NCBI GenBank assembly: GCA_021831565.1
Contig: JAKBMM010000004.1
Span: 17,120-81,119, forward strand
Direction: 5' to 3'
Source: Planctomycetota bacterium
GTDB lineage: Bacteria > Planctomycetota > Phycisphaerae > WQYP01
DNA: 64,000 nucleotides
Positions 47,185 to 62,826 of this stretch are shown one piece after another (position 1 is the first letter of the stretch; each line of letters starts with the position of its first letter). Both the position numbers and the translations under genes were made by a program. The notes beneath the pieces are model-generated. The model was not told where the DNA came from and did no database searches. It saw only the letters and a list, made by a program, of their open reading frames with translations.

Positions 47185-47229
47185 CACATGCAATATGTGG
47201 TTGACGTCGCGATAGAATTGGTGTATCGT
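47185..47229 (+). promoter_or_regulatory. candidate promoter and dyad for the defence operon
   Basis: CACAT-gcaat-ATGTG (47185-47199), then TTGACG-17bp-TATCGT (47201-47229). Confidence 0.45.
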
Positions 47230-47238
47230 TCCGCCATC

Positions 47239-50200
47239 ATGATGCGTACCGCATCTACAGTCTCCGACATCCCCGCCGATTATTCGGAGCGTATTAAACG
47301 TCTCCGGCAGCGGTTTGGATTAACCCAGGTTGAATTAGCGCAGCGCCTCGGCGTGTCGTTTACGACGGTGAACCGCTGGGAAAACGGCCAAACCCGCCCT
47401 TCGCCATTGGCTTGGTCGCGGTTGCAAAGGATGGATGGAGGGAAATCGGATGCGACAATATCCGGTGCTTATGCTTCGGGCTCGGATTTAAGCTCGGAAC
47501 GAAGCGTGGCGCCGCCATTGGATTTCACCGCACCGCCGGAGGCTGTTCGCGTGCTGGCCGAAGGTGAACGGCTGAGCTTCGGCCACATGTTCAATCCGGC
47601 GTTCGCAACCGAAATCTCGCAAATCGATCCCCTGCCACACCAGAGAATTGCCGTCTACGAGCACATGCTCAAACAGTCGCCGTTGCGTTTCCTGCTGGCG
47701 GATGACGCGGGCGCCGGCAAGACCATCATGTCCGGCCTTTATATCCGCGAAATGAAATCCCGCCGGTTGCTTCGGCGAATTCTGATTGTCGTGCCCGCCG
47801 GGCTTATTGGTAATTGGCGAAGCGAACTGGCGACACTCTTCAGCCTGCAATTCACGATCATTACCGGCGCGGACGCGAAAAACGGCAATCCATTCGTCGG
47901 TGAGCGGAGCGATAGCCTGATCATAAGTGTGGACACGCTGGCCGGTTCGCGCATGTTCGCATGTCTGCGGGCGCCGGACGTAGAGCCGTATGACCTGATA
48001 ATTTTTGATGAAGCCCACAAGCTCTCCGTGGATCGCGGCAGCGATTTGCGCGTGAGTAAAACCGACCGTTACAGGTTGGCTGAAGGATTATGTAGCGTAC
48101 CGGATGCCGAACCGGCCTGGCGGCTGCCGTGGGTGGCGCATCACGTGCTACTGCTGACCGCCACGCCGCATCAAGGAAAAGACTATCCTTATTACGCTCT
48201 ATGGCGTCTGCTGGACCCTCAAGTTCTCTCAACGCCGAAGGCGTTTGAGGAATACCCGCCCGCACACCGGCAGGCCCATTTCATCCGCCGCACCAAGGAG
48301 GAAATGGTGCAGATTAACGGCCAGCCACTTTATCCTCGGCGTATTTCGGATACCTTGGGCTACGACCTGACCCAAGGACCTAACAGCGAGCAGGCTCTTT
48401 ACGACCAGACCACCGATTACATGCGGCATGTCTACAACCGCGCCAAAATACTAAACCGTTCCGCCGCCCAGATGGCCATGAGTGTGTTGCAGCGCCGGCT
48501 GGCCAGTTCCACCTACGCTCTGCTGCGTTCCCTGGAGCATCGGATTGAAAAACTCGACGGCCTGATCCGCCAAATGCAGACCGGCGAACTGACCCAAGAA
48601 CAGTTTGTTATCTTGCAGCGCAATTTGGAGCGCGAACACGATGTTCTGGACACCAAGACAGCGGATGAAGAAGACAGCACCGCGGGCCGCGAAGAAGGCG
48701 AAATTTCGGAAGATGGCCTGCTTGCGGGAGTGCTGGCGTCCTCGCTGGCGGAACTGATTGCGGAACGGGAAGAAGTGGCGAGTCTCCGCGATCTGGCCCG
48801 TAACGTTTACGAGCATGGCGGTGAATCCAAATTCGACAAACTGCGTGAAGTGCTGACCGACGATCGCTTCGCTGGTGAAAAATTCATCATTTTCACCGAG
48901 CACCGCGACACCCTGAATTACCTGATCAAGCGACTGGGCGGCATGGGCTACACGGAACAAATCGCCCGCATCCACGGCGGTATGGATTACATCCGGCGCC
49001 AGGAACAAGTGGAGCGATTCCGCCGGCCCAATGAACAAGGCGGCGCCCAGTTTATGATCTGCACCGACGCCGCGGCCGAAGGCATCAACCTGCAATTCTG
49101 CTGGATAATGATTAACTTCGATGTGCCGTGGAACCCAGCCCGACTGGAGCAGCGGATGGGCCGAATTCACCGCTACGGCCAAAAGCACGATCCAGTGCAA
49201 ATCGTCAATCTGGTAGCGCCCAAAACACGTGAGGGGCTGGTGCTTCAGACGCTGCTGGCCAAGTTGGAGACTATCCGCAAAGCCCTGGGCACGGACAAGG
49301 TATACGACTCGATCGGCCGGCTGTTCGAGGGGGTGTCGCTTAGAACGTACATGGAACGGGCCGCCACCGGCGATGCTGCCACGATTGCCAATGAACTTGA
49401 CGGCAAGCTTACCGCGGAACAGGTTGTGGCCTTGGCGGTACAGGAAAAGAGGCTCTATGGCGACGGCGGCGACGTGAAGCGCCGTCTGCCGGAACTCCGC
49501 CAGGACTTGCAGCATGAGGCTTACCGGCGGTTGCTGCCGGGTTATGTCCGCAACTACATAGAAAATGCCGCGCCGTTGGTAGGTGTCGAAATCGACGGCG
49601 ACATGAATGGCTGTTTCACGTTCAAGCCGGCCCGCGAGGGAGCGGTCGATCCATTGCTGCATGAAGTGGAGTTTTACCCTGCCGGCCAGCGGGCATGCCT
49701 TTCAGTGATTCGCCCATCCGAGCCGCGCCCATCCGAGCCGCGCCCGTCCGAGTCGCACCCATCCGAGTCGCGCCCATCCGAGTCGCGACCGTCCGAGCCG
49801 CGACCGTCCGAGCCGCGACCGTCCGAGCCGCGACCGTCAGGGAGCGGTATCTCAAGCCCTGTGGACAAAGACCGCGTGATCTGGCTGCATCCCGGCGAAC
49901 CAGTGTTTGAGCGATTCCGCGCGATGGTCAGTGAACATTTGCAAGACCAGGCCCGGCGCGGCGCGGTATTTGTCGATCCAATTACTGAAAAGCCGTACCT
50001 GTTTCACTTGGCGCTGGTAAGTGTGCTTCGCCGCGCAGATCACGAATTGCCGGACCTTGCGCGGGAAGAAACGCTGGATTGCCGGCTTGTAGGAATAAAA
50101 CAATTTGAGGGAGCCGAAATTACCCAATGCCCCGTGGAGCATCTGTTGCTGCTTAAAGGTGGACATGGTTTGCCGCCGGAAGCCCAGCGGCTGGCGATGG

Positions 50201-51096
50201 TCGCTGAGAAACTCAAGGAACAGGCTATTGCCTATGCGGGGGAAAGTGTTGCGCGTGCGCTGGCGAGCCAACGGCGGCAGGCACTTTTAGCCACATTGCC
50301 CCAGCGGCAAGAATTCATTCGCCGTGGCTTTGCGTACCAGGAGGCGGAATTGGCCGCGGCCAGGGTAAAGCAGGCGGAAAAAGCCCGAACCAGCCTATCC
50401 GCGAGCGGAACCCCAAAGGCAATCAACTCCGAGCCGCGACAATCCGAGCCGCGACAATCCGAGCCGCGACCGTCAGGGAGCGGCGCCACCACCCTCGCCG
50501 CCAAGGCCCTCAACGACATCAAAGATCAGCAAAAATCACTGGCCCAGCGCCGGGCGATGGCCTTGGCCAGTTTGCACCGCGAGCCAGACTTGATCGCGCC
50601 CGGCAACATCACATTCTTGGCGCACGCGTTGGTTGTGCCGTCAACGGATGCCGAGGATGTAAAGCGGCATGATGCCGAGGTTGAAAAGATCGCGATGGAT
50701 CTGGCCCGCTTATTCGAAGAGGCCGCCGGTGCGGTAGTCAAGGATGTTCACACGCCGGAATTATCGCGAGCGGCTGGGTTGTCCGACGATCCGGGTTTTG
50801 ATTTATTGTCAATCAGAGGGATGGCGGGGGGATCGCTCCCTAACGGTCGCGGCTCTGAAAAAGCCATTGAAGTCAAAGGCCGCGCGGGAACCGGAGATGT
50901 GGAAGTCTCGGCCAACGAATGGGCACGGGCGGCTAATCTACGCGATGGTTATTGGTTGTACGTGGTTTATGATTGCGCAACGCCAGCGCCGCGATTAATG
51001 CGGGTGCGCGATCCATTTGGAAGGCTGCTGGCCAAGGCGAAAGGGAGCGTGCTGATTAGTGCAAGAAAGGTTCTTGACGCACAGGGGGACGCATAA
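47239..51096 (+). CDS. XRE HTH - SNF2 helicase - DUF3883 protein (DrmD-like)
   Basis: HTH RLRQRFGLTQVELAQRLGVSFTTVNRWENGQTRPSP; ADDAGAGKTIMSGLY, FDEAHK, ATPHQGKD, EQRMGRIHRYGQKHD; C-terminal KAIEVKGRAGTGDVEVSANEWARAANLRDGYWLYVVYD. Confidence 0.9.
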   Translation: MMRTASTVSDIPADYSERIKRLRQRFGLTQVELAQRLGVSFTTVNRWENGQTRPSPLAWSRLQRMDGGKSDATISGAYASGSDLSSERSVAPPLDFTAPPEAVRVLAEGERLSFGHMFNPAFATEISQIDPLPHQRIAVYEHMLKQSPLRFLLADDAGAGKTIMSGLYIREMKSRRLLRRILIVVPAGLIGNWRSELATLFSLQFTIITGADAKNGNPFVGERSDSLIISVDTLAGSRMFACLRAPDVEPYDLIIFDEAHKLSVDRGSDLRVSKTDRYRLAEGLCSVPDAEPAWRLPWVAHHVLLLTATPHQGKDYPYYALWRLLDPQVLSTPKAFEEYPPAHRQAHFIRRTKEEMVQINGQPLYPRRISDTLGYDLTQGPNSEQALYDQTTDYMRHVYNRAKILNRSAAQMAMSVLQRRLASSTYALLRSLEHRIEKLDGLIRQMQTGELTQEQFVILQRNLEREHDVLDTKTADEEDSTAGREEGEISEDGLLAGVLASSLAELIAEREEVASLRDLARNVYEHGGESKFDKLREVLTDDRFAGEKFIIFTEHRDTLNYLIKRLGGMGYTEQIARIHGGMDYIRRQEQVERFRRPNEQGGAQFMICTDAAAEGINLQFCWIMINFDVPWNPARLEQRMGRIHRYGQKHDPVQIVNLVAPKTREGLVLQTLLAKLETIRKALGTDKVYDSIGRLFEGVSLRTYMERAATGDAATIANELDGKLTAEQVVALAVQEKRLYGDGGDVKRRLPELRQDLQHEAYRRLLPGYVRNYIENAAPLVGVEIDGDMNGCFTFKPAREGAVDPLLHEVEFYPAGQRACLSVIRPSEPRPSEPRPSESHPSESRPSESRPSEPRPSEPRPSEPRPSGSGISSPVDKDRVIWLHPGEPVFERFRAMVSEHLQDQARRGAVFVDPITEKPYLFHLALVSVLRRADHELPDLAREETLDCRLVGIKQFEGAEITQCPVEHLLLLKGGHGLPPEAQRLAMVAEKLKEQAIAYAGESVARALASQRRQALLATLPQRQEFIRRGFAYQEAELAAARVKQAEKARTSLSASGTPKAINSEPRQSEPRQSEPRPSGSGATTLAAKALNDIKDQQKSLAQRRAMALASLHREPDLIAPGNITFLAHALVVPSTDAEDVKRHDAEVEKIAMDLARLFEEAAGAVVKDVHTPELSRAAGLSDDPGFDLLSIRGMAGGSLPNGRGSEKAIEVKGRAGTGDVEVSANEWARAANLRDGYWLYVVYDCATPAPRLMRVRDPFGRLLAKAKGSVLISARKVLDAQGDA
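49711..49847. repeat. in-frame 15-bp tandem array (8 units) ending in a full repeat half
   Basis: CGCCCATCCGAGCCG / CGACCGTCCGAGCCG x8, then CGACCGTCAGGGAGCGG; encodes (RPSEP)n. Confidence 0.95.
50428..50483. repeat. in-frame REP-like repeat, 3 partial units
   Basis: TCCGAGCCGCGACAATCCGAGCCGCGACAATCCGAGCCGCGACCGTCAGGGAGCGG. Confidence 0.92.
50834..50855. repeat. in-frame REP-like repeat, single unit, inverted orientation
   Basis: CGCTCCCTAACGGTCGCGGCTC encoding SLPNGRGS. Confidence 0.85.
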
Positions 51097-53039
51097 TGCC
51101 CTGGAACGACGGACTTCAAGGTCAAGCACTTCAGATCGCGGCGACGCCCAACTCGCCGCTGTGCGTCGTCGCTGGACCAGGCACTGGAAAGACTTTCGCA
51201 CTGATGCGCCGCCTGACTCGCCTGCTTGAGGTAGACCAGGCCGATCCGAAGCGTATCCTCACCTGCACCTTTACGCGAACGGCGGCGGAAGACATCACGC
51301 GTGCCATCTCACGGCTTGGGGTCAGTGGAGCGGAGGACATTCGCACCCAGACCGTCCATGGGTTCTGCTTTTCGATGCTGTCGGCTCAAGACGTGTTGAA
51401 GGCAACAGGTCGCGTGCCTCGACCATTGCTGCGATTCGAGGAGCGGTTTCTTCTTCAGGACCTCTGTAAAGCTGGCCTTGGGGGCGTTCGTGCGTGCGGC
51501 AAGAAGCTCTTGGCCTTCTCGGCGGCGTGGGCACGCTTGCAGCACGACCAGCCGGGCTGGCCACATGATGCTGCTGATCAAGAGTATCAGGCGGCGCTGG
51601 TGGCGTGGCTGCGGTTTCACGAGGCAATTCTGATTGGCGAACTGATCCCTGAAGGCATCAAGTACCTGCGCAGCAACTCGCTGTCACCATACCGCAGCAT
51701 GTTCGACCACCTGGTGGTGGACGAGTATCAGGACCTGAATCGCGCAGAGCAGCGCCTCGTCGATCTTCTGGCCAACGGCAACCTCGTGGTCGTGGGTGAC
51801 GAGGACCAGTCCATCTATTCGTTCAAGCACGCTCACCCCGAAGGCATCGTCGAGTTTCCCAGTACGCACCCGAACACCGAGGAAGCGGGCCTTGACCAGT
51901 GCCGTCGATGCCCGCACCGCATAGTGGCGATGGCCAATGCGCTGATTTCGCACAACGCGTCCCGCAGCAACCGACAGCTTCAACCGATGTCCGGTAATCC
52001 CGTCGGCGAGATTCATTCCGTGCAGTGGTCGAGCATGCAGGACGAAGCGGCGGGAATCGCCGCCTTCATCAAGGCCCGCGTTGATGCAGGGGCGGTCGCG
52101 CCTGGCAACGTGCTGGTGCTCGCGCCTCGTCGTGACTTCGGCTACCTGGTGCGTGACCAACTCAACGACCTCAACGTACCGGCACACAGCTTCTTCAGTG
52201 AGGAACTGCTGGACGGAGACCCAAAGAACATCAATGTGTCACAGGCACAGCAGGCAATAGCGTTGCTGATTCTCCTGGCCAACCTGGAGGATCGCGTAGC
52301 GCTGCGGTGCTGGTGCGGCTTTGGCAATAACTCTCTGGCCGATGCTGGGTGGGCACGCCTGCGGACCTATTGCAAAGGCACCGGCGACAGTCCATGGCAG
52401 GTTTTGGAGAAACTGGCCGGCGGAGCCTTGGCGATTGCAAATACGGGCCACATCATCACCCGTTTCCAGGCACTCCAAGCCCAGATCTCCAACCTCAAGG
52501 GCGTGACTGGGCAGCCGCTCGTGGATGCCCTATTTCCGGCTGGTGAACAGTGGGCCACTCCGTTTATCGAGATCGCGTCGACACTTGAAGAAGACGATTT
52601 TGGCCCAAGGAAACTCGTCGACACGATTCGCCGGCATGTGTCGCAACCTGAAATGCCGACCGACGTGGACTACATCCGCGTCATGAGCCTTCATAAGTCG
52701 AAGGGCCTGACCGCCGACTTGGTCGTCGTGAGTGGCTGCCTTCAGGGCTTGATCCCCAGCATCGACACCGACGCCACTCTGCAGGAGCAGCAGCAAGCGA
52801 TGGAGGAACAGCGACGGCTGTTCTATGTGGCTGTCACTCGGACCCGACAGACGCTCATTCTTTCATCGGTGACGGGCTTGCCCGTCGCAGCGGCGTTCAA
52901 GATGCGTGCCCGCACGACGCGCACCATCTGCACAACGGCAAGGACGATGGCATCTCAATTCATTCACGAACTCGGCCCGCAGTGTCCAGCTGCAGTGACC
53001 GGCCCGCAGTTCTTGGCTGCAACGGGGGTAAAACTATGA
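51096..53039 (+). CDS. UvrD/Rep-like superfamily I DNA helicase
   Basis: VVAGPGTGKTFALMRRL; FTRTAAEDI; VDEYQDLNRAEQRLVDLL; VGDEDQSIYSFKHAHPEG; VMSLHKSKGLTADLVVV; AVTRTRQTLILSS. Confidence 0.92.
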   Translation: MPWNDGLQGQALQIAATPNSPLCVVAGPGTGKTFALMRRLTRLLEVDQADPKRILTCTFTRTAAEDITRAISRLGVSGAEDIRTQTVHGFCFSMLSAQDVLKATGRVPRPLLRFEERFLLQDLCKAGLGGVRACGKKLLAFSAAWARLQHDQPGWPHDAADQEYQAALVAWLRFHEAILIGELIPEGIKYLRSNSLSPYRSMFDHLVVDEYQDLNRAEQRLVDLLANGNLVVVGDEDQSIYSFKHAHPEGIVEFPSTHPNTEEAGLDQCRRCPHRIVAMANALISHNASRSNRQLQPMSGNPVGEIHSVQWSSMQDEAAGIAAFIKARVDAGAVAPGNVLVLAPRRDFGYLVRDQLNDLNVPAHSFFSEELLDGDPKNINVSQAQQAIALLILLANLEDRVALRCWCGFGNNSLADAGWARLRTYCKGTGDSPWQVLEKLAGGALAIANTGHIITRFQALQAQISNLKGVTGQPLVDALFPAGEQWATPFIEIASTLEEDDFGPRKLVDTIRRHVSQPEMPTDVDYIRVMSLHKSKGLTADLVVVSGCLQGLIPSIDTDATLQEQQQAMEEQRRLFYVAVTRTRQTLILSSVTGLPVAAAFKMRARTTRTICTTARTMASQFIHELGPQCPAAVTGPQFLAATGVKL

Positions 53040-53872
53040 CAAACCGCCCGCCCCTCAATGATGCAATAGCATTCGCCGTCGCACGCCTTGTTGATGATGC
53101 CCAAACAGATCGCCGCGATCCGAGTCACTCAGACATTGATTTTTGCGTTACCCAGTGCCAGTTGACGGGAGGCGACCCGAAATCGCAGGGACAGACGGTC
53201 GGGAAGGCTAAGCGTGTTCGCGCAGTGCTAATGTGGGCGATGGAGAACTCGCCTGAGAACGGCCGTTGTTTTGTTGGCCAATTGATTACCGTGATCCGAT
53301 CATGTGGCGGGTTTCGCCCTGACTCGCCGAACTTCGTCGGTGTGGACGCCATCAAGAACCTCCGCGAAGCGATGGCATCTGAAGGTTTTCTGCTCACGTC
53401 CGATGGAGAAATTCAACCTGCGGCCTTGGATTCGCTCTCGGGGACAGAACTCACCGAAGCCCTCGCCACGTATGTCCGTCGCGCCCAAAAAGGGTCGGAG
53501 GATGCAGCATTGGTCGTTGGCACTGGGAAGGACCTGTTGGAGGCTGTGGCAGCGCACATACTTTGTGAATGCCGCGGCAATAAAAATCCCCCACATAACT
53601 TCCCGACACTACTCGGCCAGGCATTCGTTGAACTTGAATTAAAAACCTCAGCCGACAAGCCGGTCAGCGACGAACCCCCGCAGCACCGGCTTCAGCGTGC
53701 CCTGTACGACGCCGCCTGCGCCATTAACACACTACGGAACAAGCAGGGAACGGGACACGGCCGTCCCTGGCTGCCGACAATTACCGCCGAAGAAGCCCGC
53801 CATGCCACCCAGGTCATGGGGATCGTTGGCGATCTGCTGCTTCGAAGCTTGAAACGGAAGAAGAGATTATGA
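53036..53872 (+). CDS. abortive-infection C-terminus (Abi_C, HEPN-like) protein
   Basis: AALVVGTGKDLLEAVAAHIL ... DAACAINTLRNKQGTGHGRPW ... EEARHATQVMGIVGDLLLRSL; ATGA overlaps both sides. Confidence 0.75.
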   Translation: MTNRPPLNDAIAFAVARLVDDAQTDRRDPSHSDIDFCVTQCQLTGGDPKSQGQTVGKAKRVRAVLMWAMENSPENGRCFVGQLITVIRSCGGFRPDSPNFVGVDAIKNLREAMASEGFLLTSDGEIQPAALDSLSGTELTEALATYVRRAQKGSEDAALVVGTGKDLLEAVAAHILCECRGNKNPPHNFPTLLGQAFVELELKTSADKPVSDEPPQHRLQRALYDAACAINTLRNKQGTGHGRPWLPTITAEEARHATQVMGIVGDLLLRSLKRKKRL

Positions 53873-56800
53873 CCGATTTTCCCCGCCTCATTGAACACGC
53901 CTTTCCGCTCAAGCAGACATCATTGGATTCTGTGCACGAGAAAAACGTCCGGCATGGGCATATTTCCACGCTGCACATCTGGCCGGCGCGGCGGCCGCTG
54001 GCGGCTTGCCGGGCGGCGCTGATCGCCACGTTGCTGCCTGATCCCGGCACGCCGGAAAAGCGGCGGCAGTTATGTGAAAAGATCGGCGGCCGGATTGTCA
54101 AAAAAATCGAACGAAAAAAGATGCCCAACGGGCAAACCGTTGAACGGGTAAAAGAGGAAACCGAAGGCGGTATTTTGCATTGGGGCCGGGAAACGGAAAA
54201 TGCGGCCGATCTGGAATGGTTCCGGCAGGAGATAAAGAAAGCCTACGGAGGTCGGGCACCGAAAGTGTTGGACCCCTTTGCCGGCGGCGGAGCGATTCCA
54301 CTGGAAGCCATGCGGCTGGGTTGCGAAGCGACAGCGGTGGATATCAATCCCGTCGCGTGGTTTATCCTTAAATGCACGTTGGAGTATCCGCAAAAGTTCG
54401 CAGGTAAATCGTGGCCGTTGCCGGCATTCATCCTGGATAATGAAGAATTCATGGAGGCCTTTTATAAGGCCAATCCCAGAGCCTCATCTGTGGGACAGGC
54501 GTCCCTGCCTGCCAACAAAGAAAAGACTCCGCTTTTCGCCCAAGGCTCATCGTCCACCACTTCTACCGATTCCCAGCACGGGAGTATCCCCGCCGATCTG
54601 GCCTGGCATGTGCGGGCGTGGGGGCAATGGGTGTTGGACAAGGCTCGGCGAGAGTTGGCGCGATTTTATCCGACGTATGCGGAGTTTGAACTAGAGGTGA
54701 AACGGGGAGGGATGCCGCTCCCTTACGATCGCGGCTCGGATATCGGTCGCGGCTCGGATATCGGTCGCGGCTCGGATATCGGTCGCGGAAATGGTCCGAT
54801 CCACGACGGTCCGAGCCGCGACCGTAAGGGAGTGGCATCCTCTATCCGCGCCGGTAACGAAGCGGCAACCAACGTCCCGGATACCGGTTTTAAGTTGGTG
54901 CCGCTGAAGGATGATGGCACACCTGATATTACCGCACTGAACGCGGAATTTTCCAAGGATTATCTGGCAGACCGACGGAATCCGCGCTGGGTGGCCAAGC
55001 CAACTGTCGCATATCTTTGGGCACGCACGGTGAAGTGCAAAAATTGCCGGGCGGAATTGCCGTTGCTGAAAACGCGCTGGCTCTGCAAGAAAGACCGCAA
55101 GCGCGTGCTGCTGACAATGCGCATACCGCTCCCTTATGGTCGCGGCTCGGATAGTAGCATACCGCTCCCTTATGGTCGCGGCTCGGATAGTAGCATACCG
55201 CTCCCTGACGGTCGCGGCTCGGATTGTAGTGCCGGAAACGGTCCGAGCCGCGAGGAAAATCCGAGCCGCGACCGTCAGGAAGGGGCCAATTACCCCCCCG
55301 CATATTTGATCACGTTTACCGCCTATGGTACGTGGCTTCATGGAAGAGATGCCGGTTCAGTCGACCGTGACCACAACGTTCCTGGAACCGTATTTATCGA
55401 AGATGACGAAACCCGAGAGCGGGCGGAATTCCAGCGCCTCAAGCATTCTCCCGTAAGTTTTGATGCTCCACGGCGTGATGTCATCGAACGGACGATCCGC
55501 GAAGTATGTGGGCATCGCGGTTGGATGCTGCATGCAGTACATGTTCGCACCAACCATGTCCATGCGGTGGTGACGGCGCCAACGACGCCGGAGCGCGTGA
55601 TGAACGATTTTAAATCATACGCGACGCGACGGATGGTTGAAGCGGGCGTGTTTCCCGCCGATACGCGAGCGTGGACGCGGCACGGCAGTACGCGTTATTT
55701 GTGGAACATGGACGCGGTTCGGGACGCGTGCATGTACGTGCGGGAAAGGCAGGGCGAGGCGCTTCCGCGGGGGGATGAAGAGGATATGCCGCTCTCGGGT
55801 ATACCGCTCCCTCACGGTCGCGGCTCGGATAGTAGTCATGGCGCGGATATTGGTTGCGGCGCGGATAGTAGTCGCGGCTCGGATATTGGTCGCGGCGCGG
55901 ATAGTAGTCATGGCGCGGATATTAGTCGCGGCGCGGATAATAGTCGCGAAGTGGACGCCGGTTGCGGAAGTGGTCCGAGCCGCGACCGTGAGGGAGCGGC
56001 CAATTACTCGGATAGTAGTGCCGGGAGTGGTCCGAGCCGCAACGAAAATCCGAGCCGCAAGGAAAATCCGAGCCGCGACCGTGAGGGAGCGGTATCCTCT
56101 ATCTTCGGCATTCAAACCGATGTACCCGTGCAAGGCGGTAACGCGGCGCAAAAACGCGAACATGACAAGCGCATCGGCGCCGGCACCATGAGCCGGTCCG
56201 GCGCAACATGCCCGTGCTGCGGCACGATCAACACGATGGAGGACATTCGCCTGGAGGGCAAAGCCGGCCGGATCGGCAGCGTGATGACCGCGGTGGTTGT
56301 CGATGGGCAGAACGGCAAAGAATATCGGTTGCCGACGGAGCATGAACTCGCCATGGCCGCGATCAGTGAGGAGCAAATCCAAACGGCCTTCAAGGATGTG
56401 CCGTTTGGCGTTCCGGAGGAGCCGACGCCGAAAGGTGGAGGTTCCGGCGCTGGGCGGGCGTTCAGTGTCCAAGGTTATGGACTGATGCGGTGGCGCGATC
56501 TTTTCACTCCCCGCCAACTGGTGGCGCTGGGAACCTTTGTTGCGGCAACCCGCGCGGCCCGGCAGGCGATGGCTGATAGCGGCTATTCGCCGGGATGGGT
56601 TGAGGCTGTAGGGGCATACTTGGCGTGCGGTTTTGATCGAATGTTGGACTTCAACGGCTCCACACTTTCCTGGATCACCAGTGTTGAGGCCATTGGCCAT
56701 ACGTTTGTTCGTTATGCGCTGCCCATGACCTGGGATTTCTGCGAAGCCGTCCCGGTTAATCTCGTTCGCGGTGGATGGGAAATGTGCCTTGGGGCCGTGA

Positions 56801-58266
56801 TGGAGAGCAATCCGACGTTGGGCCGCGCAGGGGTGGCGACGAGTCAGGGACCAGAAGTGAAGCGCCAAAGCGCGACCGTCCACTTACAGCTAAATTCCTT
56901 TGATGCAATTGTGACAGACCCGCCATATTACGATGCAATCCCTTACTCTGACCTGATGGATTATTTCTTTATTTGGCTCCGACGTATCGTGTTCGGCATT
57001 ATGCCCGCGGTCGATTCCGCTTTCTCACGGCCGCTCTCACCAAAGTGGGACCAGGACCAGAACGATGGCGAACTAATTGACGACTGTAGCCGTCATAACA
57101 ATGACGCCGCAAAAAGTAAGCAGGTCTACGAAGATGGTATGGCCGCAGTCTTCGTGCAGTGCTTAAATGCTCTAAAGCCCAACGGACGCTTGGTGATAGT
57201 CTTTGCAAACAAGCAACCCGATGCATGGGAAACATTGGTTTCAGCGATCATTCGCTCCGGTTTTGTCGCCGATGGTAGTTGGCCAATCCAGACTGAACAG
57301 GCAGCCCGCATGCGGGCACAGTCGTCGGCTGCGCTGGCGTCTTCCGTCTGGCTGGTAGCGCGAAAACGCCCAGAAAATGCCCGCCCCGGCTGGGATAACA
57401 AAGTTTTGGAAGAAATGCGGGCCAACATCGCCACGAAACTGCGCGATTTCTGGGATGCCGGCATTCGTGGGCCGGACTTTGTCTGGGCGGCCACCGGCCC
57501 GGCGCTCGAAGCGTACAGCAAGCACCCAGTGGTGCGCAAGGCCGATGAACCAAACGCCACCATGAGCGTCGGCGAGTTTCTCACCCATGTTCGCCGCATG
57601 GTCGTGGATTACATTATCGGCCAGGTGCTCGGCGGTAGCCATCCGAGCCGCGACCGTGAGGGAGTGGAAATTCCCGCAGATCGTTTGGATGAGGTCACCG
57701 CTTACTATCTGTTGCACCGCAACGATTTTGGCATGGACGAAGCGCCCGTGGGGGCGTGCATACTTTATGCCACCGCCTGCGGGCTTTCCGATACGGAACT
57801 TGAAAAAACATGGGACGTGCTGAATAGGAGCGGCGCCGAAGATGACGATCCGAGCCGCGACGGTAACGGAGCGGCAGACCTTGATCCCGCCCAGGACGAA
57901 GACATGCCATCCGGCTCCACGGGCCAGCAAATCAAACTCAAAGCCTGGACCCAGCGGCATGGAAAGAGCATGGGTTACGAAGCGCCGGCCGGCCGAGCCA
58001 TTCCGCTGATCGACCGCATCCACCGGCTGATGCACTTGTGGAAGCAGGGGGACGTGCATAAGGTAGATGAATATCTTGATGCGTCCGCCTTGCGCAAGAA
58101 CGAGCTTTTCAGGCGGGTGGTACAATCGCTGATCGAGCTGTCGGAAAACAGCGAGCGATCGATTCTGGAAAGCATCAGCAACCATGTCGGGGCCAAGGGA
58201 GCGCGGCGCGAAACCGGACCGGAGTTATTTGCGAACGCGAGTGATGAAGAAGGGGCCGGTGAGTGA
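53869..58266 (+). CDS. DUF1156 DNA methylase carrying in-frame REP-like repeats and a transposase domain
   Basis: RLIEHAFPLKQTSLDSVHEKNVRHGHISTLHIWPARRPLAACRA; DPFAGGGAIPLEAMRLG; DAIVTDPPYYDAIPYSDLMDYF. Confidence 0.92.
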   Translation: MTDFPRLIEHAFPLKQTSLDSVHEKNVRHGHISTLHIWPARRPLAACRAALIATLLPDPGTPEKRRQLCEKIGGRIVKKIERKKMPNGQTVERVKEETEGGILHWGRETENAADLEWFRQEIKKAYGGRAPKVLDPFAGGGAIPLEAMRLGCEATAVDINPVAWFILKCTLEYPQKFAGKSWPLPAFILDNEEFMEAFYKANPRASSVGQASLPANKEKTPLFAQGSSSTTSTDSQHGSIPADLAWHVRAWGQWVLDKARRELARFYPTYAEFELEVKRGGMPLPYDRGSDIGRGSDIGRGSDIGRGNGPIHDGPSRDRKGVASSIRAGNEAATNVPDTGFKLVPLKDDGTPDITALNAEFSKDYLADRRNPRWVAKPTVAYLWARTVKCKNCRAELPLLKTRWLCKKDRKRVLLTMRIPLPYGRGSDSSIPLPYGRGSDSSIPLPDGRGSDCSAGNGPSREENPSRDRQEGANYPPAYLITFTAYGTWLHGRDAGSVDRDHNVPGTVFIEDDETRERAEFQRLKHSPVSFDAPRRDVIERTIREVCGHRGWMLHAVHVRTNHVHAVVTAPTTPERVMNDFKSYATRRMVEAGVFPADTRAWTRHGSTRYLWNMDAVRDACMYVRERQGEALPRGDEEDMPLSGIPLPHGRGSDSSHGADIGCGADSSRGSDIGRGADSSHGADISRGADNSREVDAGCGSGPSRDREGAANYSDSSAGSGPSRNENPSRKENPSRDREGAVSSIFGIQTDVPVQGGNAAQKREHDKRIGAGTMSRSGATCPCCGTINTMEDIRLEGKAGRIGSVMTAVVVDGQNGKEYRLPTEHELAMAAISEEQIQTAFKDVPFGVPEEPTPKGGGSGAGRAFSVQGYGLMRWRDLFTPRQLVALGTFVAATRAARQAMADSGYSPGWVEAVGAYLACGFDRMLDFNGSTLSWITSVEAIGHTFVRYALPMTWDFCEAVPVNLVRGGWEMCLGAVMESNPTLGRAGVATSQGPEVKRQSATVHLQLNSFDAIVTDPPYYDAIPYSDLMDYFFIWLRRIVFGIMPAVDSAFSRPLSPKWDQDQNDGELIDDCSRHNNDAAKSKQVYEDGMAAVFVQCLNALKPNGRLVIVFANKQPDAWETLVSAIIRSGFVADGSWPIQTEQAARMRAQSSAALASSVWLVARKRPENARPGWDNKVLEEMRANIATKLRDFWDAGIRGPDFVWAATGPALEAYSKHPVVRKADEPNATMSVGEFLTHVRRMVVDYIIGQVLGGSHPSRDREGVEIPADRLDEVTAYYLLHRNDFGMDEAPVGACILYATACGLSDTELEKTWDVLNRSGAEDDDPSRDGNGAADLDPAQDEDMPSGSTGQQIKLKAWTQRHGKSMGYEAPAGRAIPLIDRIHRLMHLWKQGDVHKVDEYLDASALRKNELFRRVVQSLIELSENSERSILESISNHVGAKGARRETGPELFANASDEEGAGE
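54715..54835. repeat. 26-bp inverted repeat pair flanking three 18-bp direct units
   Basis: Left 54715-54740 and right 54810-54835 complementary except 2 positions; GGCTCGGATATCGGTCGC x3 at 54733-54786. Confidence 0.95.
55123..55287. repeat. REP-like cluster upstream of the embedded transposase: three 36-bp direct units plus inverse units
   Basis: ATACCGCTCCCTTATGGTCGCGGCTCGGATAGTAGC at 55123, 55159, variant at 55195; GGTCCGAGCCGCGAGGAAAATCCGAGCCGCGACCGTCAGGAAGGGG. Confidence 0.95.
55288..55800 (+). mobile_element. in-frame Y1/REP-associated (IS200-like) transposase domain inside the DUF1156 ORF
   Basis: YLITFTAYGTWLHGRDAGSVDRDHN...HAVHVRTNHVHAVVTAPTTPERVMNDFKSYATRRM...AWTRHGSTRYLWNMDAVRDACMYVRERQG; HxH at 55555-55563, Tyr codon 55618-55620. 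Confidence 0.88.
55801..56093. repeat. REP-like cluster downstream of the embedded transposase
   Basis: ATACCGCTCCCTCACGGTCGCGGCTCGGATAGTAGT..., many (G)CGCGGATA(G/T)TAGT/GGT units, then inverse CCGAGCCGCGACCGTGAGGGAGCGG twice. Confidence 0.95.
57641..57667. repeat. single in-frame REP-like unit
   Basis: ATCCGAGCCGCGACCGTGAGGGAGTGG encoding PSRDREGV. Confidence 0.92.
57848..57874. repeat. single in-frame REP-like unit
   Basis: ATCCGAGCCGCGACGGTAACGGAGCGG encoding PSRDGNGA. Confidence 0.9.
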
Positions 58267-59489
58267 TGAGCTATCGTACTATCGAGAAGAATCGCACTTC
58301 CCCCAAGAGCATCGTCGTGGCCGCTAGTGACTATGGCCGGCTGATATCCGACATATCCGGCCTTTTGGAGCAGGCCCGACGTGGAGCGGCGCGGTCGGTC
58401 AACGCGATTCTGACGGCGACCTACTGGGAAATAGGCCGGCGCATCGTGGAGCATGAACAGTGCGGCGCGGCCAGAGCGGATTATGGGGAGAGGATGCTGC
58501 CACGTTTGGCCGCTGATCTGACGGCCAGACATGGCCGGGGGTTCTCCCAGCGGAACATTGAGCAGATGCGAGCCTTCTACCTTGGTTGGGAGATTGCGCA
58601 GACACCGTCTGCGCAATTCGAGGCAAGAGTGAAATTACCGATAGAATCGGGAGAATTGGTGCTGGCAAAGGGCCAGCCACCGGTTGGACAAACTCTGATT
58701 ACGCAGACACCGTCTGCGAAATTGAGCCAACCGCCGATTCCGGCCGCTTTCCCACTTTCTTGGTCCCACTACACACGACTGCTGTCCGTGGATAAGCCCC
58801 AGGCCCGCCTCTTCTACGAAAGCGAGGCGATTCGCGGTGGATGGTCGGTCCGCCAACTGGACCGACAGATCGGCACGCAGTTCTTTGAACGCACGGTGCA
58901 TTCCAAACGCCAGGCGGTGATGCTGGCCCGCGGCCAACAGGCCCGGCCGGAAGATGTGGTGACGGTGGAAGACGAGGTACGCAGCCCGTATCTACTGGAG
59001 TTCCTGAACCTCAAGGACGAGTACAGCGAGAGCGAACTAGAGGAAGCGCTGGTGCGTCACCTGGAGACGTTCCTGCTGGAGCTTGGGGCGGGGTTCACCT
59101 TCGTCGCTCGGCAGAGGAGGATTCGCGTCGGCAACGAATGGTATCGCATCGACCTGCTGCTGTTCCATCGACGGCTGCGATGCCTGATAGTGATCGACCT
59201 GAAGATCGGCAAGTTCACCCATGCCGACGCTGGCCAGATGAACCTGTACCTGAACTACCTCCACGAGCACATGATGGAGCCCGGCGAGAATGAGCCGGCG
59301 GGTCTGATTCTTTGCAGTGCGAAGGATGACGCAGTGGTTCACTACGCGATGGGTGGGATTAAGGCGAAGGTCTTCGCTTCCCAGTACCTAACCGTGTTGC
59401 CGGACACGGAAACCCTACGGCAAGAGATTCTCAAGACGCAACATGCCCTCGAAATGCGGGCGGCGATGAAAGGACAAAGTCATGGCTAA
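58263..59489 (+). CDS. DUF1016 (YhcG-like) PDDEXK nuclease domain protein
   Basis: SVNAILTATYWEIGRRIVEHEQ; FSQRNIEQMRAFY; YRIDLLLFHRRLRCLIVIDLKIGKFTHADAGQMNLYLNYL. Confidence 0.9.
   Translation: MMSYRTIEKNRTSPKSIVVAASDYGRLISDISGLLEQARRGAARSVNAILTATYWEIGRRIVEHEQCGAARADYGERMLPRLAADLTARHGRGFSQRNIEQMRAFYLGWEIAQTPSAQFEARVKLPIESGELVLAKGQPPVGQTLITQTPSAKLSQPPIPAAFPLSWSHYTRLLSVDKPQARLFYESEAIRGGWSVRQLDRQIGTQFFERTVHSKRQAVMLARGQQARPEDVVTVEDEVRSPYLLEFLNLKDEYSESELEEALVRHLETFLLELGAGFTFVARQRRIRVGNEWYRIDLLLFHRRLRCLIVIDLKIGKFTHADAGQMNLYLNYLHEHMMEPGENEPAGLILCSAKDDAVVHYAMGGIKAKVFASQYLTVLPDTETLRQEILKTQHALEMRAAMKGQSHG
58593..58617. repeat. perfect palindrome, copy 1 (11-bp arms, 3-nt loop)
   Basis: ATTGCGCAGAC-ACC-GTCTGCGCAAT. 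Confidence 0.95.
58698..58722. repeat. near-perfect palindrome, copy 2 (one arm mismatch)
   Basis: ATTACGCAGAC-ACC-GTCTGCGAAAT. Confidence 0.92.
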
Positions 59490-62400
59490 GCTTTCTTGGA
59501 AACCCTGGCATGACGTGGTGAAACTGCGGGCGGATTTGCAGTCCGGCGAGTTGCCGCTGCACCTTTTCGCGGCCGATTTGTATGAAGTCATGATGCAGGG
59601 TGGCAAACTGCCGATCTACGAAGACCCGATCAGCTTCTTCGCCCTGACCTATCCGACGCATAACCTGAGAAACCTGGCCCGCGACGTGGTGCTGCGGCTG
59701 GCCGGACAAAATGACAAAGCTGTGCGCCAACTTGAACTGACCTATGGCGGCGGCAAAACGCATACGCTCATCATGCTGCGCCACCTGGTCAACGACCCGA
59801 CAAAACTCCCAGACGTGCCGGCGGTCCAGGAATTTGAACAAACCATTGGCATGACGCCCCCGAAGGCGCGCGTGGCCGCCCTGTGTTTTGACAAAGTGGA
59901 TGTGGAAATCGGCTGCGATGTGCGCTCACCTGATGGAAAAATCAGGCGACTCAAATACCCCTGGAGCATCCTGGCGTTTCAGATCGCCGGCGATGCGGGA
60001 CTGAAGCTGCTGCACCCGGAGGGGCGGGCCGAGGAGCGGCGCACGCCGCCGGCCGAGCCGACGCTGGCCGGCCTGCTGGCTTTGCCGGCCATGGACAAAT
60101 TGTCCACGCTGGTGCTGGTGGATGAGGTGTTGCTGTATGCCAAGGTCAAGGTGCGTTCCGATCCAGGCTGGCTGGATTTGCTAAGTTCGTTTTTCCAGTA
60201 CCTCACACAAGCGGCGGCCAAGGTGCCGCGCTGCTGTATTGTGGCTTCGCTGCTCTCCAGCGAGCCAAAGGACCAGGCGGATGAATTGGGCAAACGAATT
60301 GTCTCGGAACTTTATGACATATTTCAGCGCCAACGGGAAGAGGCGGTACAACCGGTTGAAAAAGGTGACGTGGCCGAGGTGCTCCGCCGGCGGCTGCTGG
60401 ATACATCATCGATTCAGAACCGGCAGATCTGGCGAGGGCATGTGATTGCGGCGATCAAGGGGATTGCCAACCTTGATGAGCAGACCGCCAAGGCCGGTGC
60501 CGCCGAGGAAGACCGCTTTCTGGCCAGTTTCCCGTTTCATCCGGAACTGACGGACGTATTTTATTCCAAATGGTCCGCCGGCATTGAACGGTTTCAAAAG
60601 ACGCGCGGGGTTCTGCGAACATTTGCGTTGGCGCTACGCGAAGCGGAAAAATGGGATGAAAGCCCTTTGATCGGGCCGGCGGTTTTTCTCAATGCGCCGG
60701 AAATGCAAGGACTTTCCGAAGCGGCACGTGAATTGGTCGCCATCGCAGACACGATCGCGGTTGACGGTCAGGCGAACCGTTGGACGGGCATTCTGGAGGC
60801 CGAACTGAATTGCGCCGGCCAAGTTGAAGCGGAATCAATGGGGCTGAAGCTGCGGGAAATCCAGCAGGCTGTAATGACGACCTTCTTGCATTCTCAGCCA
60901 ACGGGCCGCAGCGCCAAAACACGCGATCTACTGCTTTTGGTTGGGCCATGCCGGCCGGACAGAATTGAGTTGGAAAAGGCTTTGATTCGCTGGGCACACA
61001 GCAGCTACTGGCTGGATGACGCCAATCTGCCGGAAAATGACGATCGCTTGCCGGATCAATGGCGGCTGGGAAATCGGCCCAACTTAACGCAAATGCAGGC
61101 GGCGGCGGCCGGACAGTTCTCCGCCGAGTTGATACGGGCCCGGCTGTTGGAAGAAATTCCCCGCGTCCGGGGTCTTTTCAGCGGGGCGTCCGCGGCGGGC
61201 GTGCGCGTGCATACGCTGCCCGCCAGACCGCGGGATGTCGAAGACGATGGGCTGTTTCATTACGCCATCATGCCGCCGACCGCCGCATCAGATTCAGGCA
61301 AGCCGAGCGCCGAAGCCAGGCGATTTCTGGATGAGAAGACTGGACCTGACAACCCGCGTGTGTTCCGCAACGCGGTTCTATTACTTGTTCCTTCGCGCGA
61401 TGGGTTGGGTTTGGCCGAAGCAGCCGTGCGTGATTTTTTGGCCTGGGAGAAAGTGCGCCAAGACTTGGCGCCGGGTGGCAGCGGAGAAACAGCAGCAACA
61501 GGGACAGTTGACATCGCGCGGATGGAAACACTGCGCATCAACCTGGAGAAAGCCAAGCGCCGCGTGCCGGAAGCGATTTGCCAGGCTTGGTGCATTGTGG
61601 TGACGGTATCGGAAAAGAATGAAGCCCAGGCATTCAAGATTACGGTGACGCAAGACGGTCATTTTGAAACGATCAAGCGGGATAACCGCTCGCGTGTGAA
61701 AGATACGCCGGTAACAGCGGATGCATTATTGCCCGGTGGGCCGTACAGCTTGTGGAAACAGGGCGAAACCAGCCGGCGGGTGAAGGACTTGGCCGGCGCC
61801 TTTGCGCAGCTTCCGCACCTGCCCAAGATGCTCAAATCGCAGGCGATTGTGGACACGCTGGTGGATGGTTGCGTGCAGGGGGCCTTCGTACTGCGCCTTA
61901 CGCGGCCGGATCGCACGTTCCGCACATGGTGGCGCTGCCGCCCTGATGATACCGCGCTGGCGGATCCGGCGATGGAATTGGTGCTTCCAGAGGCGGCAGA
62001 GTTGGCGGAGATTCCCGGCGAACTGCTGGCGCCGGGTATTTTGCCGGGACTCTGGTCGGGCGGCGAATTGAGTGTCCAGACGGTTCTGGATTATTTCCGC
62101 GGCGGCAAATCGGTGCAGGTGGATAAAGGGGGCTTCACCGACGCGGTTCCGGTTCCAAAGGCGGCGGCTCAAGTCGTGAATTCGGCAATCGAAGCGGCCG
62201 TAGCCAGTGGCAAAGTCTGGTTGCTTTCCGGTCCGGCGAGCCTGCTGGGCGAACCGATTCCCGCAGGCGTGTTAAGCTCGGCGGCCTTATTGCGCATACC
62301 TCCGGAGCCGATTTCGGCGGCGGCGATCCTGCCGGAAAATCTGCCCGTGGCATGGCAAGGCGGCGTCACGACGGCTCTGGCAATTCTGACGGCACTTTCG

Positions 62401-62826
62401 CAGAAAGCGGGGCGGAATCTCCCCTGGAAGGCGGCGCGTGACGTGATTGGCGGAGCGCTGCAGGCAAGGTTCATCGAATTAGCCGACGGTTCTGCGGCCT
62501 GGCCTTGTGAATTGCCCGCGGCGCAAGGAGTGAAGCTGAAAGTTTGCTCCAGTCGGAGCGCTGCCTCGACCTCGTCCGGCGGCGCGAATACCGTACCCCC
62601 GGCTGCGCAGGTACGAATGGTGTCCGCAGATTTTGAGCCTTCACAAGTGCAGGATTTGGCCGAATTGATTCCCGATCTCTTGGCTGTCAGCGCCAATGCC
62701 GGAGTTGCGTTAAAGTTCCACGTGCGGCTTGAGATTGGCGATGGCGGAAAATCTCCAGGTGATGATGTCCTCAAAGCACTCAACAAAGTGCTTGAACAAT
62801 TGGGAGAGGATTTTCGTCTGGATTAA
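59482..62826 (+). CDS. DUF499 ATPase (defence-associated family)
   Basis: VKLRADLQSGELPLHLFAADLYEVM; QLELTYGGGKTHTLIMLRHLV; STLVLVDEVLLYA. Confidence 0.88.
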   Translation: MAKLSWKPWHDVVKLRADLQSGELPLHLFAADLYEVMMQGGKLPIYEDPISFFALTYPTHNLRNLARDVVLRLAGQNDKAVRQLELTYGGGKTHTLIMLRHLVNDPTKLPDVPAVQEFEQTIGMTPPKARVAALCFDKVDVEIGCDVRSPDGKIRRLKYPWSILAFQIAGDAGLKLLHPEGRAEERRTPPAEPTLAGLLALPAMDKLSTLVLVDEVLLYAKVKVRSDPGWLDLLSSFFQYLTQAAAKVPRCCIVASLLSSEPKDQADELGKRIVSELYDIFQRQREEAVQPVEKGDVAEVLRRRLLDTSSIQNRQIWRGHVIAAIKGIANLDEQTAKAGAAEEDRFLASFPFHPELTDVFYSKWSAGIERFQKTRGVLRTFALALREAEKWDESPLIGPAVFLNAPEMQGLSEAARELVAIADTIAVDGQANRWTGILEAELNCAGQVEAESMGLKLREIQQAVMTTFLHSQPTGRSAKTRDLLLLVGPCRPDRIELEKALIRWAHSSYWLDDANLPENDDRLPDQWRLGNRPNLTQMQAAAAGQFSAELIRARLLEEIPRVRGLFSGASAAGVRVHTLPARPRDVEDDGLFHYAIMPPTAASDSGKPSAEARRFLDEKTGPDNPRVFRNAVLLLVPSRDGLGLAEAAVRDFLAWEKVRQDLAPGGSGETAATGTVDIARMETLRINLEKAKRRVPEAICQAWCIVVTVSEKNEAQAFKITVTQDGHFETIKRDNRSRVKDTPVTADALLPGGPYSLWKQGETSRRVKDLAGAFAQLPHLPKMLKSQAIVDTLVDGCVQGAFVLRLTRPDRTFRTWWRCRPDDTALADPAMELVLPEAAELAEIPGELLAPGILPGLWSGGELSVQTVLDYFRGGKSVQVDKGGFTDAVPVPKAAAQVVNSAIEAAVASGKVWLLSGPASLLGEPIPAGVLSSAALLRIPPEPISAAAILPENLPVAWQGGVTTALAILTALSQKAGRNLPWKAARDVIGGALQARFIELADGSAAWPCELPAAQGVKLKVCSSRSAASTSSGGANTVPPAAQVRMVSADFEPSQVQDLAELIPDLLAVSANAGVALKFHVRLEIGDGGKSPGDDVLKALNKVLEQLGEDFRLD

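Follow-up and report, generated by a model that had tools for sequence, protein, structure and literature searches.

TnpAY1 transposases of class 3 carry the motifs NHVH, W[TA], and Y----Q (Quentin et al. 2018, PMC6006769). They are described from Planctomycetes and Acidobacteria as stand-alone genes with REP-like flanking hairpins that have a CnGA foot, and the survey left out unusually long proteins as fusions or annotation errors. In REPIN/RAYT systems (PMC8049555), a RAYT is accompanied by inverted REP pairs and REPs are dispersed in the genome; the models regard RAYTs as single-copy, vertically inherited genes without self-copying, and a gene that receives a REPIN copy is assumed to be destroyed. 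Short palindromic repeats without a transposase lie in frame in host proteins, including tRNA synthetases, as intragenic REPs (Di Nocera et al. 2013, PMC3733652) or as Rickettsia palindromic elements (PMC10969869). An IS200/IS605-type Y1 transposase is found within coding genes in IStrons, which group I intron splicing renders harmless (PMC4227781), and inteins are in-frame residents of conserved, essential genes.

The locus described here differs from each of them. Its class 3 transposase lies inside another gene without a start of its own, and the entire transposase is carried in frame, not just a short repeat. Unlike in IStrons, no intron was found and the frame is kept; unlike in inteins, the insert has neither a splicing domain nor junction residues and is apparently retained in the protein. 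In contrast to the REPIN/RAYT models, whole RAYTs were found inside the only alaS or valS of the cell; they belong to unrelated classes, and the same loops are occupied across many lineages. Judged from the sequences, many planctomycetes thus appear to harbour a mobile element that is translated as a passenger domain of their own enzymes. In the open-access literature searched, no paper was found on RAYTs inside synthetase genes.

The window, that is, the whole stretch of 64,000 nucleotides of planctomycete DNA that was analysed, comes from a draft genome in 86 contigs. Its ORF at 53869-58266 on the + strand runs through 1465 codons with no internal stop. Pfam matched DUF1156 at the start of the protein (E 1.3e-17) and Y1_Tnp at residues 533-591 (26 bits vs a cut-off of 23), and PADLOC identified the ORF as HmaB (E 1.4e-111). 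The NCBIfam equivalog cut-off for DUF1156_antiphage was not reached (143.7 bits vs 1000), and the protein is a distant relative of this subfamily. With the Hma system profile, the HmaB match was flanked by HmaA upstream and HmaC downstream, as in the Hma defence system (PADLOC), in which the HmaB-type methylase sits between the HmaA helicase and the HmaC ATPase. The window operon differs from that system in the transposase within HmaB and in its extra genes; those between hmaA and hmaC (window 47188-62826) encode a UvrD/GajB-like helicase, an Abi_C protein, and a DUF1016 (PDC-S02) nuclease. The features are as follows.

47188-51096, + strand: hmaA, SNF2-type helicase (PADLOC HmaA, E 7e-151)
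49717-49847, - strand: in-frame REP array in hmaA, 15-bp units
50428-50483, - strand: second in-frame REP array in hmaA
53869-58266, + strand: hmaB-type DUF1156 adenine methylase ORF carrying the insert, with DPFAGGG 5' and DPPY 3' of it
54709-54835, + strand: another REP pair, in frame in hmaB and REPIN-like, with no transposase
55120-56103, + strand: in-frame insert of 328 codons in place of a 10-aa loop, delimited by empty-site comparison with L269 and L272
about 55123-55287, + strand: left REP cluster, three 36-bp units (PLPYGRGSD), then reverse-complement REPs
55288-55770, + strand: TnpAY1 domain of class 3 (RAYT), lacking a start codon; 55555-55557 and 55561-55563 encode the HUH histidines and 55735-55737 the Y----Q tyrosine
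about 55801-56093, + strand: right REP cluster, in which forward REPs in units of 18/36 bp precede reverse-complement ones (PSRDREGA)
57642-57667, - strand: single in-frame REP in hmaB
57849-57875, - strand: single in-frame REP in hmaB, more diverged
59482-62826, + strand: hmaC, ATPase, DUF499-related (PADLOC HmaC, E 7e-64)

The original prediction of a complete Y1/REP-type transposase with its repeats, in frame within a loop of a DUF1156 methylase, was borne out by the open frame, by the two Pfam matches, and by the empty loop in two uninterrupted relatives (L269 and L272). These read ...KTRWLCKKDKKRVLLTM-EPNADKSGVV-FGINPNVPIKGG...GAGTMSRSGAKCPCC, with EPNADKSGVV as a ten-residue loop, whereas the window reads ...KTRWLCKKDRKRVLLTM-(328 codons, 55120-56103)-FGIQTDVPVQGG...GAGTMSRSGATCPCC. 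Both flanks could be aligned (KTRWLCKKDKKRVLLTM-EPNADKSGVV-FGINPNVPIKGGNTAQRREHDKRIGAGTMSRSGAKCPCC vs KTRWLCKKDRKRVLLTM-block-FGIQTDVPVQGGNAAQKREHDKRIGAGTMSRSGATCPCC), so that the proposed comparison with DUF1156 proteins lacking the insert set its exact ends. The block is slightly longer than first given and replaces a short loop. It consists of a REP array, the HUH transposase, and a second REP array, all in frame with the methylase, and separates DPFAGGG from the DPPY motif within a loop of the Cys-rich region. An ancestral DUF1156 subdomain at this position was ruled out, since the loop is empty in both relatives and both sequence and fold mark the segment as a Y1 transposase.

The REP unit of the window is TCCGA-GCCGCGACCGTGAGGGAGCGG, with a CCGA foot ahead of a GCCGC...GCGGC hairpin, and the stability of this short hairpin was not significantly above that of shuffled sequences. 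In both clusters, the forward copies come first and the reverse copies last, so the RAYT is bracketed by inverted REP pairs. The REP units tested were stop-free in four of the six frames, the loop bases deciding in the other two. With a repeat period of 15, 18, 36, or 45 bp, all in-frame arrays of hmaA and hmaB were free of indels (0%). Of the 16 exact REP cores in the genome of the window, 15 fall within the Hma operon, which fits an arrival of the operon along with its REPs. Considering this near-confinement of the cognate REPs, the RAYT copy of the window may be inactive or newly arrived.

The window RAYT shows TNHVH (HUH), WTRHGST (W[TA]), and YVRERQ (Y----Q), all of which fit TnpAY1 class 3, and the hairpins flanking it have the CnGA-type foot of that class; its scores were under the cut-offs of NF033573 and NF047646, and the class 3 assignment is by motifs and hairpins. 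The tyrosine of YVRERQ is near-invariant, whereas that of FKSYATRRM, originally proposed as catalytic, is W or H in some relatives and must be given up as the candidate. REPs lie on both sides of the RAYT, as in a REPtron, but it has no start of its own: neither ATG nor GTG occurs near its beginning, and the host ORF is continuous, so there is no separate RAYT gene.

In the AlphaFold2 model of the window protein, the RAYT had pLDDT values of 70-96, the linkers were near 25, and the methylase part was of low confidence (mean pLDDT 53). The PDB folds closest to this model were the Y1 transposases ISDra2, IS608, and the RAYT 4er8. For an alanyl-tRNA synthetase with the same kind of insert (L042), the RAYT had values of 80-96, the linkers were below 50, and the synthetase was mostly at 75-95; the closest PDB folds were alanyl-tRNA synthetases. 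The RAYT is thus predicted to be a separate domain on disordered REP-encoded linkers.

Considering that the source genome is a draft, the join could be an assembly chimera, or the gene could be a dying pseudogene. We regard this as hardly credible: the frame is open and its dN/dS is low (see below), and the fusion, looked for elsewhere as originally proposed, recurred with the identical join in three further HmaB assemblies (L039-L041), while other in-frame fusions stand in single-contig genomes. These same two observations rule out an assembly artefact.

Altogether, about 47 genes with an in-frame RAYT were found (DUF1156 methylases, 6; alaS, 11; valS, 23; purH, 3; other methylases, 4), and the fusion in the window is neither a one-off nor a chimera. 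Searching on RAYT similarity alone gave 80 loci, about 21 of which were in frame inside larger genes, namely alaS at at least three sites, valS, DUF1156 methylases, and other methylases. A class-wide search added further valS cases, purH, and methylases, and a phylum search added a methylase. Most loci come from metagenome assemblies; G454 (valS), G310 and G338 (purH), and G291 (the methylase of the phylum search) are single contigs. Among 120 genomes of the class, at least 90% complete and sampled without bias, valS carried an in-frame RAYT in at least 11 and alaS in at least 2. Long valS frames in this sample held class 2 RAYTs (MPDHVH / MPNHVH, WQxEYFD) with a different REP, in the same loop and in others. 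No relatives of the window RAYT were found in plasmid, phage, and viral collections, and a plasmid- or phage-borne element was rejected on that ground. Long frames at L153, L160, and L168 were rejected as fusions, being read-through of noise frames, and so were two long valS frames without a RAYT (L229 and L233).

Several of these loci have features of their own. Eight valS genes (L230, L231, L232, L235, L236, L239, L240, and L241) have in-frame class 2 RAYTs at three sites with GTGVPPV/GRDARPT REPs. The window genome itself has a second DUF1156 methylase (G000:C62:35615-39121; L279:1068-4700, - strand) with an in-frame class 2 RAYT at a different site and GRDARPPEG-type REPs; this RAYT is unrelated to that of the window. 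Two class 3 RAYTs occupy a single alanyl-tRNA synthetase frame of 1686 aa in G383 (L048). In purH (L154, L155, and L156, and also G417 and G543), the in-frame RAYT belongs to a more distant lineage with another REP type (EARGS / AAGFSPRG).

For the frame test, RAYTs between the two halves of alaS, valS, purH, or hmaB were scored with strand and frame left free. All 55 matches (39 distinct after de-duplication) were in the sense orientation and in frame, with the host halves in one frame; the test covers these four host families, and some loci had been picked for long frames, whereas about 20 came from the RAYT-similarity search and had not. Only the RAYT's own frame offers a reliably open path through the block, so the host gene alone would enforce the in-frame sense state. 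The result is therefore a sign that the host message is translated through the block, not that the transposase has a function.

The interrupted gene is nearly always the only copy of alaS, valS, or purH. It was the sole alaS in 11 of 11 genomes, where split pieces were contig breaks, the sole valS above the cut-off in 18 of 18, and the single purH in 5 of 5; among five valS genomes examined earlier, G305 had a second partial valS, perhaps from mixed strains. The fused proteins scored above the curated cut-offs (alaS, 839 bits vs 457; valS, 936 vs 704; purH, PRK00881, 563 vs 402).

Residence in essential genes is also what introns and inteins show, and IStrons are a known partnership of an IS605-type element with an intron (PMC4227781). 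The element might accordingly be removed by intron splicing or ribosome bypass, before or during translation, or by protein splicing. However, an Rfam search of six fused loci found no intron or ribozyme, and every tested insertion kept both frame and orientation, neither of which RNA removal or bypass would require. The indel-free arrays of hmaA and hmaB also speak against removal. No intein family was among the domain matches, and the block ends, which are variable REP codons, show no splice-junction or other intein-type end residues. We consider removal by any of these routes very improbable.

A single ancient insertion with vertical inheritance was insufficient to explain the distribution, since the RAYT and valS trees require the element to have been gained or lost repeatedly. 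In the RAYT tree, the window clustered with L039-L041 (100/99), the independent DUF1156 fusion of Thermogutta (L058) fell elsewhere, and at least four changes between the stand-alone and embedded states were forced. In the valS tree, the class 3 RAYTs in one loop call for seven or more gains or losses, close pairs differ in occupancy (L167/L229 and L150/L233, occupied/empty), and near relatives hold class 2 RAYTs in the same loop. The insertion sites are loops, near residues 364-376 of T. thermophilus ValRS for valS and adjoining residues 307-311 of human AlaRS chain 4xem for alaS.

An ATG near the RAYT start was present in 35 of 40 stand-alone copies vs 3 of 35 embedded class 3 copies (p = 1.4e-12). 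With the start codon lost, expression of the embedded copies, if any, would go through the host gene. The HUH motif was kept in all 40 embedded RAYTs. The dN/dS of the RAYT part was 0.07 for the window and L039 and 0.14 for L154 and L155, with similar values for the host parts, in a set of three pairs measured at high dS; by these ratios, embedded RAYTs show the marks of purifying selection.

Such selection on the RAYT part, together with the several copies in related hosts, could also mean that the domain has been co-opted and is now useful to the host enzyme, e.g., in binding ssDNA or REPs. Yet the same RAYTs sit in unrelated enzymes (a methylase, two synthetases, and PurH), closely related valS genes are empty, as the two pairs above show, and one loop is filled by unrelated RAYT classes. 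Co-option is therefore, to our judgment, quite improbable.

The reading that we prefer, with a probability of roughly 0.8, is that a REPtron block was inserted sense and in frame, is translated through, and is carried as a tolerated passenger domain, recurrently so in single-copy essential genes and defence methylases. What can be read from the sequences carries it: the anatomy, frame, and orientation of the block, its repeated origin in single-copy hosts, the lost start codon, the kept HUH motif, and the pattern of purifying selection. A class 3 RAYT bracketed by REP hairpins (the REPtron) would have entered the loop in the Cys-rich region of the HmaB-type methylase, in the sense orientation and in frame. 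Ribosomes would read straight through the block, and the transposase, lacking its own start, would become a separately folded passenger on flexible REP-encoded linkers of the methylase, in a fused protein that is probably made and stable and whose host enzyme probably works. RAYTs of at least two classes appear to have settled in this way, each time in one of a few loops that tolerate them, both in genes that are indispensable and single-copy (alaS, valS, and purH) and in defence methylases. Because the host depends on the gene, the frame of the element would be preserved and its expression supplied, and the passenger would persist, as the host could not easily lose the block without risk to its own gene.

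Of the three outcomes originally envisaged (a tolerated extra domain, separation after translation, or a functional methylase-transposase fusion), the first is the best supported, and later cleavage is less so. If the block were translated and then released, proteases would cut the disordered REP linkers, leaving a host enzyme of two reassembled halves and a free RAYT. The linkers are indeed long and predicted to be disordered, the RAYT is an independent fold, and some split enzymes are able to reassemble. But no conserved cleavage motif was found, linker sequences, lengths, and REP frames vary among the loci, and a cut at that loop would have to be tolerated by every host. Release thus seems unlikely, although less so than removal or co-option.

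Passenger carriage of this kind would offer mobile elements a route for adding whole domains to conserved proteins and an alternative to introns and inteins for harmless life in essential genes, and it might explain the long-term persistence of RAYTs. It is also a warning for annotation that such fused proteins are easily thrown out as artefacts. In G454, G577, and G654, the valS-borne RAYT is the only class 3 RAYT, and these genomes have 174, 68, and 101 REP-like sites vs 31, 2, and 8 for a control pattern; we infer that a fused RAYT may still move REPs. Tentatively, as a proposal that could well fall either way and that we hold slightly short of even, ORF-resident elements might form a general class that normally lives as a translated domain inside indispensable enzymes, with essentiality in place of splicing as the safeguard against loss and with the fused transposase as the active source of the genome's REPs.

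Four further loci were noted. In the valS of G491:C82 (L164), exact cognate REPs were found only beside the valS RAYT, which suggests a recent arrival or transfer of a valS allele. The valS of G220 (L229) has an in-frame insert without a RAYT and with a different repeat type (LPQLGERSGEGD... / GEG). The alaS of G370 (L248) has its frame broken by several stops and may be a pseudogene, a frameshift, or an assembly error. At L063:5113-6507, a pseudaminic acid cytidylyltransferase-like protein carries a fused RAYT at its C-terminus.
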